Shown: positions 36,288 through 48,004 of the stretch, one piece after another
Position numbering within the stretch: position 1 is the first letter of the stretch
How the letters are laid out: the number at the start of each line of letters is the position of its first letter
Assembly (NCBI RefSeq): GCF_000315915.1
Contig: NC_020194.1
Span: 62,001-126,000 of the forward strand
Source: Henningerozyma blattae CBS 6284
Taxonomy: Eukaryota; Ascomycota; Saccharomycetes; Saccharomycetales; Saccharomycetaceae
Direction: 5' to 3'
DNA: 64,000 nucleotides
Made by a program: the position numbers and the translations under genes
The notes under the pieces: model-generated
The model's input: only the letters and a program-made list of their open reading frames with translations
Databases searched by the model: none
What the model was told of the DNA's origin: nothing

Positions 36288-36725
36288 TTAGCATGAGCAT
36301 CCCTTCTTTGTAGGACATTTACATTCTTCACACTTGCATGGAGAGCAAGAGCCACATTTAGCTGGAGCACAGGAGCAATCTTGGCATGTACAACTTGAAT
36401 CTTTACTGCCATTACATTTGCAGGCAGTACTCTTTTCAGCTGAGCATTCACAACTGTTTTTTTTCTCAGAGCATTCACAATTGTTTTTTACCTCAGGACA
36501 TTCACAATTGTCTTTTTTCTCAGAGCATTCACAACTGTTTTTTGGCTTTTCAGAACATCCACAGTTATTATTGTTCTTTTCAGAACATTTGCAATCTGTG
36601 CATTTGCAATCTATGCATTTACATGATTTTCCTGGGCATTGAGAACATTCACATGTTGAACATTCACAGACATTGCATTGGCAATCTTGGCAGTTGTTAC
36701 AGTTTGAAGTATTAGTTGAAGACAT
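36288..36725 (-). CDS. Cysteine-rich metallothionein, copy 1
   Basis: The 145-residue protein contains 39 cysteines, almost all in C-x-C or C-x2-C spacing, with no aromatic residues. This composition is diagnostic of a metallothionein that buffers copper, cadmium or zinc. The N-terminus MSSTNTSNCNNCQDCQC is followed by short CxC modules, a central array of about ten-residue units (SEKKDNCEC type), and a C-terminal CxC block ending KKGCSC. It is longer than S. cerevisiae Cup1 (61 residues) and not clearly homologous to it. It is one of two tandem copies; this one has an extra TDCKC module and an extra SEKKNSCEC unit. The metal specificity is not readable from sequence. Confidence 0.9.
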   Translation of the reverse strand: MSSTNTSNCNNCQDCQCNVCECSTCECSQCPGKSCKCIDCKCTDCKCSEKNNNNCGCSEKPKNSCECSEKKDNCECPEVKNNCECSEKKNSCECSAEKSTACKCNGSKDSSCTCQDCSCAPAKCGSCSPCKCEECKCPTKKGCSC

Positions 36726-36918: not shown

Positions 36919-37293
36919 TTAGGTACATTTGCATTCTTCACACTTGCATGGAGAGCAAGAGCCGCATTTAGCTGAAGCACAGGTACAATCTTGGCATGTA
37001 CAACTTGAATCTTTACTGCCATTACAGTTGCAGGCAGTACTCTTTTCAACTGAGCATTTACAATTGTTTTTTTCCTCAGGACATTCACAATTGTCTTTTT
37101 TCTCAGAGCATTCACAACTGTTTTTTGGCTTTTCAGAACATCCACAGTTACTATTGTTCTTTTCAGAACATTTGCAATCTATGCATTTACATGATTTTCC
37201 TGGGCATTGAGAACATTCACATGTTGAACATTTACAGACATTGCATTGGCAATCTTGGCAGTTGTTACAGTTTGAAGTATTAGTTGAAGACAT
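36919..37293 (-). CDS. Metallothionein, copy 2, 3' end broken at the gap
   Basis: This copy has 124 residues and 33 cysteines, nearly identical to copy 1 apart from two missing repeat units and scattered substitutions. Its last codons read TGT ACC TAA directly beside the gap, where copy 1 reads TGT CCT ACA and continues for eight more residues. An extra A shifts the frame to a premature stop, so the end is probably an assembly artefact. The promoter to the right (37294-37465) is almost identical to that of copy 1, with TATAAAAG at 37396-37403. Confidence 0.85.
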   Translation of the reverse strand: MSSTNTSNCNNCQDCQCNVCKCSTCECSQCPGKSCKCIDCKCSEKNNSNCGCSEKPKNSCECSEKKDNCECPEEKNNCKCSVEKSTACNCNGSKDSSCTCQDCTCASAKCGSCSPCKCEECKCT

Positions 37294-37465: not shown

Positions 37466-38438
37466 AGCGAATCTCTCGCGCCAGCAATATGCCGCACTAG
37501 ATTCCCAGAGCTAAAACTCCGCAAATTGAAAAAAAAGCACAACAACCTGTCAGTGAAAATTTCTCAAAGAGTAATTTTCATCTACAAAGAATTCCCCTAT
37601 AGTGTTTGGCATTTGCCTGATTTGAACCCTTACTTTAGTCTTGGAATTATCTAGAAATGGTTTTCTTCAAGTTAAATACGATACGTAATTAAAATTTATT
37701 TTACCTGGAATAAATTATACATTTATAATGCTACATTGCATGTGAAATTAACGTAATACTATAATATTCTATTGAATAAAACACTTAAAAGTTTAGTATT
37801 ATTTACACTCATAAGTACTTCTATCAAATGTGGAACATTAATAAGCATTACCATATATCTGTTTTTAAGTATCCCGAATCATCTAAATATTTAGGTTGGT
37901 TTAATCAATACATTCATATAGAATTGAATTAACGCAATAAAATGTCTTCAGATACAGTATAATTAGTTATAAGCTAATAATAAGATGTAGTTTTTCATTC
38001 ACATATAGTCCTTTAGAATTAGATGAATAATCAATAGGAGCTCTTACAATATGTTTTTTTCATCAGGAACATATTCTTTGTTGATAATTAAATAGATTGT
38101 AGTCTGACATGTGAAAAAAAAGGAATTCCATAGCATACCATGATCATTTTTAGTTTTTCAAAACACTCTTTATTATTTAGATATAAAATCAAAATTCCTA
38201 TTATATAGTGATCTGGCTAGTATTTTACAGATGACTATAACCCTGATTATTCTTATAACTATAACTTACTTATCTTATTCTGTGTAATTCTATATAGATG
38301 TCTCATGGGTATCGCTTTATATACAAGCGAGTTTACACGTCGCAATATGTTGACGCGAACGTCTCTGATTTAGTTAGGGCTTGTAAGCTCCTAACCCTTG
38401 ACACAGTGTACTGACAGTATCACTATGCCACAAATTTC
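37466..38438. other. Spacer right of the metallothionein array
   Basis: About 970 bp. The first part (AGCGAATCTCTCGCGCC) is the upstream promoter of copy 2. The remainder is AT-rich, without a gene. Confidence 0.5.
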
Positions 38439-38863
38439 TGTTGTAATACGAGACTGACAGGACAAGGATGGTGTTTCAGAGTTCGGATGGTACTGAGATC
38501 AGTAGTTACAGGTTGTATTACACAAGATTATTGTACCTCCCATTGGTCCTTCTCTTTATAGTATATAATAATATATTGATCTATACATGCTCCTTATATA
38601 CTTCTTTAGAGCTGGACAGTTCCGGGTGCATAGTTACAAGATGCGGTACACTCATTGAAACCTGGGTGTCATTCTTACTAATAGGTGTCCGAGATGAACC
38701 AGAAGTGGGTGCAGATTCAGTGGTTACAGTTGATGTTCTACACCAGCTGAATAGTTGTTTCTCAGCTGTGGTCAGCTGATCTGTCCTCTCTCGAGGCTTC
38801 TCTTGTACTGATTTCTTGTAAGTATTACGTGAAATGCAACAGCGCTTAGACAGTTTTACAACA
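38439..38863. mobile_element. Possible LTR-like element with TGTTGTAA / TTTACAACA ends
   Basis: The segment starts TGTTGTAATACGAG and ends CAGTTTTACAACA, giving inverted tips like Ty3-type LTRs. Seven bases beyond its right end, TGTTGTAAAC begins again, forming a palindromic junction. It contains open frames on both strands (38468-38779 plus; 38581-38901 minus) that match nothing I know. There is no perfect target duplication (atttc versus aaatc). Higher GC than the flanks suggests foreign origin. Confidence 0.3.
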
Positions 38864-38983
38864 AAATCACTGTTGTAAACCAACTTAGAAGTACGATACA
38901 CTTAATTAGTAACTACCAAAACTTAACTTAACAATCTTATTAACTTAACACCAGTTAATACTTCGAACTTACGAATATAATTG

Positions 38984-41253: not shown

Positions 41254-43242
<1,989 letters not shown>

Positions 43243-44373: not shown

Positions 44374-45380
44374 TTCTTTATTTTTTTGAAAATAGTAGTA
44401 TTCACGTGACATCATGGTGCTAACATTTTTAGTAATTCTCACTATAAATATGTTTATGTTACCCGGGTTTTAGTTAGAACCAGGAATTAATATAAAATTA
44501 GATTGTTTTGTTAAACAGAATACTCATTCTGAATATCCATCTTCACAGAACGTTCCTCTTATGTAAGACCTATGTCTCGTCAGACACAAGCTTCCCGGAC
44601 ATAATACATATGTTCTCATCAGAACCGGCGTTCTGGAAGATAACTCTTAACGAGCCGAATTGTAACAGCCGTTCTAATTCGTAGAGTACACCTTCCGCAT
44701 AGTCTCTGCCAATGATAGTAGTATGGTACCTAAACATTTACCTATCATCCCATTTTTAGGGGTAAGCTTCTAAAAGCTACTCTGTCCTTTCCTAATCGTG
44801 AGCCTATCGCCCCACACCTTCGGTTACCTTAGATCTCTTGTGATCTCTGACTCCTCAGATATCTCTATATCTCTTAAGTCTTCCTTTTGTCTCTGAATAT
44901 ATTCTTTCGTGCACCTTTTAGTATAAACTTATTCACAAGTATACTATTTTATTTATATCCTCTCGATCACATGACTTGACCAACTGTCCGTCACATTCCT
45001 CGTCTGGATCTACCATATTTTGGTTAACCAAAGGTTGGTTGATAAATATTTCTTAGATTCATCCCATCTTGGTAGCTGAAAATGATACTACTGTCTCTTT
45101 TAGTTTGTTATAAAAATGGCTATTAACAAGACAACTCAGCCAACTTGGAAATATAAAACAATAAGTATCGTAGAATGCTGACTTGGAACTAAATGTCGTT
45201 CCTCCATCCTATTTAAGCTAGATAATTTAACGATTTAATAATCCTTCAATTCCACATGAGTATCAACAAAATTCAATTGAAAATTTGACGTTTATATTCC
45301 GCATTTAATATTAATAGGATATGTTGTATTGATATTTATAAAATTTCCTTTTTCAAATATTATATAATTGTTTTTATGTT
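44374..45380. other. 1 kb spacer of higher complexity after tRNA-Lys
   Basis: It begins with a Pol III T-run, then TTCACGTGAC (44401-44410) and TGTTTATGTTACCCGGG (44451-44467). From about 44540 to 45010 the GC content and complexity rise (for example CAGAACCGGCGTTCTGG, a hairpin), hinting at decayed inserted DNA. No open frame or LTR ends could be assigned. Confidence 0.45.
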
Positions 45381-46037
45381 CTATTTAGCATTAAAACAAG
45401 ATTCAAAAAATTCATATTCTAATTGAGTAACCTCAACAAATGTTTTTTCAACTTTCTCAATAGTATAATTATCAACTTCTGCCCTCAGAAAGTTACACCA
45501 TTCAATGAAATGTTCACCATCATGTAAGTCAATCCATTTTTGATACTTCCAATGAAGATTGTCAGCTTTTGGTAAGAAATGAGCCCATTGAAAATAAATA
45601 TGTTCAGCAATCCATGCAGAAGTGATTAATTGTGGGTAATCAATTGATTCATCATAGGTTAGCATTTTTATATATTCAATATATTTTTTAACAGAGTCAA
45701 GTTCATTATTGTTATAAAATTCAATTTCATTTTCTGTCATTGCAGGTTTTAATAACTGTAAACAGTCATGAAAATAAGTGTTTTCATCATTAGACAAAAA
45801 ACCTAATTGTCTAGCTAATATTAGTAGCCTTTTAACATCTGGACTTAAAAAGATTGTTCTACACATATTTCTCATCCCAGCTTCAAAGAACTGTAAATCT
45901 TGAGCCAAATAGATATATAAAGCCCTATCAGTTAAAGTACCTAGACATAATTGTTTAGTTAATTCGTGCTCAGTAGCTTTTGTAAAGAGTTTAGCATGTT
46001 TTGCCAATAACTGTTCTGTTGTTGATTGTGGAGACAT
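45381..46037 (-). CDS. TENA/THI-4 family protein (Pet18-like)
   Basis: The protein has 218 residues with an all-helical TENA fold. Recognisable blocks are RALYIYLAQDLQFFEAGM, ENTYFHDCLQLL, ITSAWIAEHIYFQWAH and the C-terminal WIDLHDGEHFIEWCNFLRAE. TenA-type enzymes hydrolyse aminopyrimidines in thiamine salvage. In S. cerevisiae the domain occurs in Pet18 and at the C-terminus of Thi20/21/22. This stand-alone form resembles Pet18. I cannot assign catalytic residues with certainty. It is not in the S. cerevisiae PET18 context. Confidence 0.8.
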   Translation of the reverse strand: MSPQSTTEQLLAKHAKLFTKATEHELTKQLCLGTLTDRALYIYLAQDLQFFEAGMRNMCRTIFLSPDVKRLLILARQLGFLSNDENTYFHDCLQLLKPAMTENEIEFYNNNELDSVKKYIEYIKMLTYDESIDYPQLITSAWIAEHIYFQWAHFLPKADNLHWKYQKWIDLHDGEHFIEWCNFLRAEVDNYTIEKVEKTFVEVTQLEYEFFESCFNAK

Positions 46038-47602: not shown

Positions 47603-47707
47603 TTAAACGATAATACATGCTGGATCCCAAAACAAACCAGGAACAATATAATTATCTTTGTTTTCAGAGGAGTTATCTTTTCTTGTAGCTTGAGTAGTTG
47701 GTTGCAT
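47603..47707 (-). CDS. MFA1: Mating pheromone a-factor precursor
   Basis: A 34-residue precursor that begins MQPTTQATRKDNSSENKDN, closely like S. cerevisiae Mfa1/Mfa2. The predicted mature peptide YIVPGLFWDPAC follows, then a CAAX box CIIV. By analogy the Cys is farnesylated and methylated, the N-terminal part is removed by Ste24/Axl1-type proteases, and Ste6 exports the peptide. The prohormone Asn-Tyr cleavage junction (N19/Y20) is kept. The mature peptide differs from S. cerevisiae YIIKGVFWDPAC at three positions, including Pro for Lys at position 4. A TATA box and an a-specific operator lie upstream. MFA1 versus MFA2 cannot be decided. Confidence 0.95.
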   Translation of the reverse strand: MQPTTQATRKDNSSENKDNYIVPGLFWDPACIIV

Positions 47708-47820: not shown

Positions 47821-47830
47821 GCTTTTTATA
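47821..47830 (-). promoter_or_regulatory. TATA box of the a-factor gene
   Basis: TATAAAAAGC on the minus strand, about 115 bp before the ATG. Confidence 0.65.
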
Positions 47831-47973
47831 TTATTTTATTTCCAAAACAATACTCTATTTCTAATAAATAATTACTATTCTATTAAAGGTATTTTTGATT
47901 TGAAACATTATTGCTTTCAGCATTTTGTCAATACTTCATTCTATTTTGTAATGTAGAGTCGCATTATTTGAAC

Positions 47974-48004
47974 CATGTATTTTTCCTATTCGGGCTATTA
48001 CACA
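47974..48004. promoter_or_regulatory. a2-Mcm1-a2 type a-specific operator
   Basis: The 31-bp element consists of CATGTA, five bases, the CArG-like Mcm1 core CCTATTCGGG, then TTACACA near the right edge, which is the inverted a2 half-site. Its length and symmetry match the S. cerevisiae STE6/MFA operators, except that the core is shifted by one base. It lies about 267 bp upstream of the a-factor ATG, where it would repress the gene in alpha cells. Confidence 0.75.

Follow-up and report, generated by a model that had tools for sequence, protein, structure and literature searches.

A Probably Active a-Factor Gene of Henningerozyma blattae, One of Five Intact Copies in the Genome

The a-Factor Precursor Gene

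A short gene on the minus strand of the window, that is, the whole 64 kb stretch of Henningerozyma blattae DNA analysed here (C10:62001-126000), is very probably a working a-factor gene and one of five in this yeast, whose older name is Tetrapisispora blattae. An earlier note on this DNA had described a 34-codon a-factor gene, and its coordinates and peptide proved correct: the frame translates to MQPTTQATRKDNSSENKDNYIVPGLFWDPACIIV (34 residues, C-terminal CIIV), which matched the Pfam family PF17317 (MFA1_2) over profile positions 1-34 of 34 (E 6.1e-24, 83.9 bits, cut-off 25). On the same profile, S. cerevisiae Mfa1 and Mfa2 scored 66.4 and 76.8 bits. The locus was also recovered by a profile search of the whole genome, and translation of 47603-47707 on the plus strand gave nothing resembling a-factor. 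Besides the profile score, the gene combines a short CAAX precursor and the FWDPAC end with predicted a-specific elements upstream, and by its sequence the frame is a genuine a-factor precursor gene. A sequence search of a structure library with the a-factor returned no match. That an open frame of only 34 codons arose by chance has practically no probability, since such an E value lies far beyond chance, and four paralogues and selection on the amino acids already refute it.

Table 1. Features of the a-factor gene in the window, its neighbourhood and its paralogues. Positions are those of the window unless another contig is named.
Feature	Position	Strand	Description and basis
a-factor precursor gene (MFA copy C10)	47603..47707	minus	34 codons and TAA stop; mature YIVPGLFWDPAC, CAAX CIIV; translation, PF17317 match, genome profile search
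Leader MQPTTQATRKDNSSENKDN, codons 1-19	47651..47707	minus	boundary predicted from that of the S. cerevisiae a-factor YIIKGVFWDPAC
Mature peptide YIVPGLFWDPAC, codons 20-31	47615..47650	minus	sequence
CAAX box CIIV, codons 31-34	47606..47617	minus	sequence; Cys31 is also the final mature residue
Operator-like site TGTGTAATAGCCCGAATAGGAAAAATACATG, at -297	47974..48004	minus	alpha2-Mcm1-alpha2 type; pattern match
Exact TGAAACA, at -200	47901..47907	read on other strand	Ste12-type pheromone response element (PRE); pattern match
TATA-like box, at -123	47825..47830	minus	pattern match; weak evidence in AT-rich DNA
TENA-like gene	45381..46037	minus	downstream of the window MFA, same strand; counterpart beside C1a
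MFA copy C1a	C1 near 304,900		mature YIVPGLFWDPAC, CAAX CIIA
MFA copy C1b	C1 near 425,269		mature YIIPGLFWDPAC, CAAX CIIV
MFA copy C1c	C1 near 573,085		mature YIIPGLFWDPAC, CAAX CIIV
MFA copy C2	C2 near 1,161,118		mature YIIPGLFWDPAC, CAAX CIIA

Like MFA1 and MFA2 of S. cerevisiae, the window copy belongs to the same length class, has a leader of the same type ending in KDN, shares the core YI.xG.FWDPAC and carries a CAAX box that is aliphatic; Lys4, Ile3 and CVIA there are replaced by Pro4, Val3 and CIIV. The S. cerevisiae a-factor, YIIKGVFWDPAC, is given in PMC7035247.

By analogy with S. cerevisiae biology, the transcription of the gene would be driven by Mcm1 and Ste12 in MATa cells and shut off by alpha2 in alpha cells. 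The 34-residue precursor would be farnesylated at Cys31, lose its last three residues and then be carboxyl-methylated, and its leader would be removed before Tyr20, so that a 12-residue lipopeptide would be exported and would bind Ste3 on alpha cells. Of the genes expected for this route, the ICMT/STE14-type gene, the Peptidase_M48_N/STE24-type gene and STE3 were sought, and each gave one match in the genome, the STE3 match being 100% identical over 281 residues to TBLA_0J01070. One match was also found for STE2. The 13-position profile of MF-alpha found no match here nor in any control genome, and its silence in the controls makes its miss here uninformative.

Five Genes and Two Peptide Forms

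The earlier note had called for a look for a second MFA locus, and four further intact copies were found. Across the 14,041,469 bases in 10 contigs that were searched, five intact a-factor genes without internal stops were identified on three contigs, with protein and Pfam-profile searches in agreement (Table 1). The FWDPAC end of the mature peptide was found in all of them. A scan for a sixth copy used a DNA pattern for FWDPAC with up to two mismatches, the reversed pattern serving as control, and returned 18 sites against 6 with the control. The five perfect sites were the MFA genes, and 12 sites, as counted by the pattern, stood at two mismatches; the profile search yields five genes. A one-mismatch site on C4, considered as a possible sixth copy, encodes FLDPACEK and was discarded on its sequence.

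The distribution of substitutions along the five copies indicates constraint on the peptide. Among the 34 codons, 13 vary synonymously only, 10 by replacement, and 11 are invariant. The 19-codon leader holds eight of the ten replacement codons, and the other two are codon 22, where Val and Ile alternate, and the codon of the C-terminal residue; of the 12 mature-peptide codons, eight show synonymous variation, one replacement and three no change. For the mature part plus CAAX box, dN ranged from 0 to 0.059 against a dS of 0.57 to 2.23 over the 10 pairs, in a stretch so short that individual values are noisy (dS was undefined for one leader pair). This substitution pattern is nevertheless that of genes in use.

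It was claimed in the earlier note that the gene encodes a variant pheromone, with Pro4 as a possible contributor to mating specificity. Pro4 and Val3 do differ from S. cerevisiae, but Pro4 occurs in all five copies, and Val3 is also carried by C1a, Ile3 being found in C2, C1b and C1c. Pro4 is therefore the residue of the species and not a peculiarity of the window gene. Val3 for Ile is on sequence grounds a conservative change, common to one sibling, and Leu6 also occurs in S. cerevisiae Mfa2. Pro4 is also found in the a-factor of K. lactis, so Lys4 may be the derived, newer state and Pro4 the older one. Pro4-Gly5 would favour a turn, and any effect of Pro4 on mating specificity is a guess. 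It appears improbable that a cells secrete a mix of Val3 and Ile3 peptides, both with Pro4-Gly5 where S. cerevisiae has Lys4-Gly5, and that the mix or the stiffer turn sets which species' alpha cells respond.

The number of copies has counterparts in other yeasts. S. cerevisiae has two MFA genes against the five of T. blattae. In PMC3161974, MFA genes of related yeasts are described as duplicating and relocating frequently, and N. castellii is reported to have five MFA genes, three of them at sites unique among the 11 species studied; the likeness between these two post-duplication yeasts is one of gene number. PMC6156195 describes two a-factors of K. marxianus, KmMFA1 and KmMFA2, which differ by one residue within one genome, as here, in two genes instead of five.

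The most likely role of the copies is to raise the a-factor dose. A different reading is that the Val3 and Ile3 forms, each with Pro4, differ in their effect on the receptor and that the copies were kept for signal quality instead of dose. The two forms, encoded by two and three genes, agree with this, as does the persistence of the Val3 form in both C10 and C1a at a dS of about 0.57-0.59, and so does the one-residue difference between the K. marxianus a-factors in PMC6156195. The conservative nature of Val for Ile and the single STE3 match in the genome argue against it, and it is considered unlikely beside a contribution to dose.

As a gene finding, this is an ordinary one, scattered multiple MFA copies being already known from other yeasts. 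The window gene belongs, judging from these comparisons, to a known multi-copy family and is probably active. What the set offers is a post-duplication yeast with five a-factor genes, two peptide forms and, within the scope of the search, one receptor gene, which offers a modest case in which to ask what causes MFA genes to multiply and relocate; it could also show how much position 4 of the ligand matters to Ste3.

Upstream Control Elements

The strict operator pattern had a single match in the 64 kb window, the site at -297, and a looser pattern returned the same site and four others. In 40 shuffled windows, the strict pattern matched 0.05 times on average, with any match in 1 of 40. An exact PRE was present at least once within 600 bp upstream of all five MFA genes.

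Operator sites were also scored, out of 32 bases, against the operator-like site found before STE2 in this genome, with 500 shuffles each, a control that is not fully independent, since the operator pattern had served to locate the STE2 site in the first place. The best scores were 26 for C1a and 23 for the window copy (equalled by none of 500 shuffles in either case), 22 for C2 (3 of 500), 19 for C1c (125 of 500) and 18 for C1b (374 of 500). The alpha-specific STE3, taken as negative control, reached 17 (496 of 500), and its upstream 1000 bp contained no operator-like site. Hence, by this score, the sites of C1b and C1c do not exceed what chance would give; C1c matches the strict operator form with variable spacing, and C1b has at -187 what was judged by eye to be a degraded relative of the site.

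Together, the operator-like site at -297 and the Ste12-type element at -200 make the window copy look live. The earlier note had named, as the case that would speak against its reading, a silent copy beside an intact MFA pair elsewhere, and given this predicted promoter, silence is less likely. The four other intact copies could supply the pheromone and leave the window gene as a redundant or silent relic; yet its frame is intact, replacements are few, and the DNA just upstream holds an exact PRE and the one place in the window that fits the strict operator pattern, which together leave the relic with a small probability. A working gene is thus the preferred reading of the window copy.

Duplication History and Neighbourhood

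The Val3 form links the window copy with C1a, and downstream of each, in the same orientation, lies a TENA-like gene; the two loci look like a duplicated block. The two TENA-like genes are 72% identical over 218 residues and lie 1.6 kb from the window MFA and 3.8 kb from C1a. It is therefore probable that both copies derive from one duplicated block that included the TENA-like gene. The window gene scored 20.6 bits on TENA_THI-4, just below the cut-off of 22; its twin on C1 (L029:8834-9490) scored 33.8 bits, above that cut-off. The present surroundings comprise genes for a CRAL-TRIO/RhoGAP protein and a RasGEF in the window and for a ubiquitin-conjugating enzyme at C1a. When the proteins of the C1a region were compared with the window (tblastn, E<=1), the matches were the TENA-like gene and one repeat-borne frame only, and neither the ubiquitin-conjugating enzyme nor a 103-residue frame lying between MFA and TENA at C1a was matched.

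C1b and C1c would form a second pair: both leaders start with MQYN, and an alignment of 421 columns with 73% identity spans the gene and upstream DNA. These two duplicate pairs fit the picture of duplicating and moving MFA genes given in PMC3161974.

A dispersed repeat at 44430-45015 of the window, solo-LTR-like in length, gave 32 match rows in the genome, and another copy of it lies about 1.7 kb from C1c. A spread of MFA by this repeat was considered and rejected: the repeat is downstream of the gene at one locus and upstream at the other, which indicates that it was not copied along with MFA, and its proximity was taken as a coincidence. No inverted repeat of at least 14 bases was found in or around the window MFA copy. 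At 38400-38900 of the window lies another dispersed repeat, about 430 bp long, for which at least 54 match rows were obtained; many of them are 90-95% identical, and the count is a lower bound with 40 of 99 candidates scored.

Annotation and Earlier Literature

The label of an uncalled gene, also given by the earlier note, is unconfirmed either way, and it is made doubtful by two siblings that are already in NCBI: C1a and C1c correspond letter for letter to the hypothetical proteins TBLA_0A01280 and TBLA_0A02390. A protein search with the a-factor frame returned two candidates, both from T. blattae, and the clusters of these two proteins comprise 3 and 2 member sequences, respectively. Such sizes would fit an annotation of all five copies. 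With 3 of 34 residues changed relative to C1a, both C10 and C2 would suit membership in the TBLA_0A01280 cluster; C1b and C1c differ at 4 of 34 residues, and their identity of 88%, below the stated 90%, speaks against the five cluster members being the five genes.

Literature searches combining a-factor or pheromone with Tetrapisispora blattae, and a-factor genes with copy number, found nothing, and a search with the peptide strings found only that of S. cerevisiae; an earlier publication of the gene set is possible.

Two Cys-rich neighbours on the minus strand of the window (36288-36725 and 36919-37293; 145 and 124 residues) are 84% identical over 137 residues and metallothionein-like in look, and the 145-residue protein had no Pfam match at E 0.01. 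An old-yellow-enzyme gene lies at 41254-42456, also on the minus strand, and T. blattae has at least five further proteins of this type (TBLA_0A10550, 0B02130, 0C01370, 0D03290 and 0I03570).
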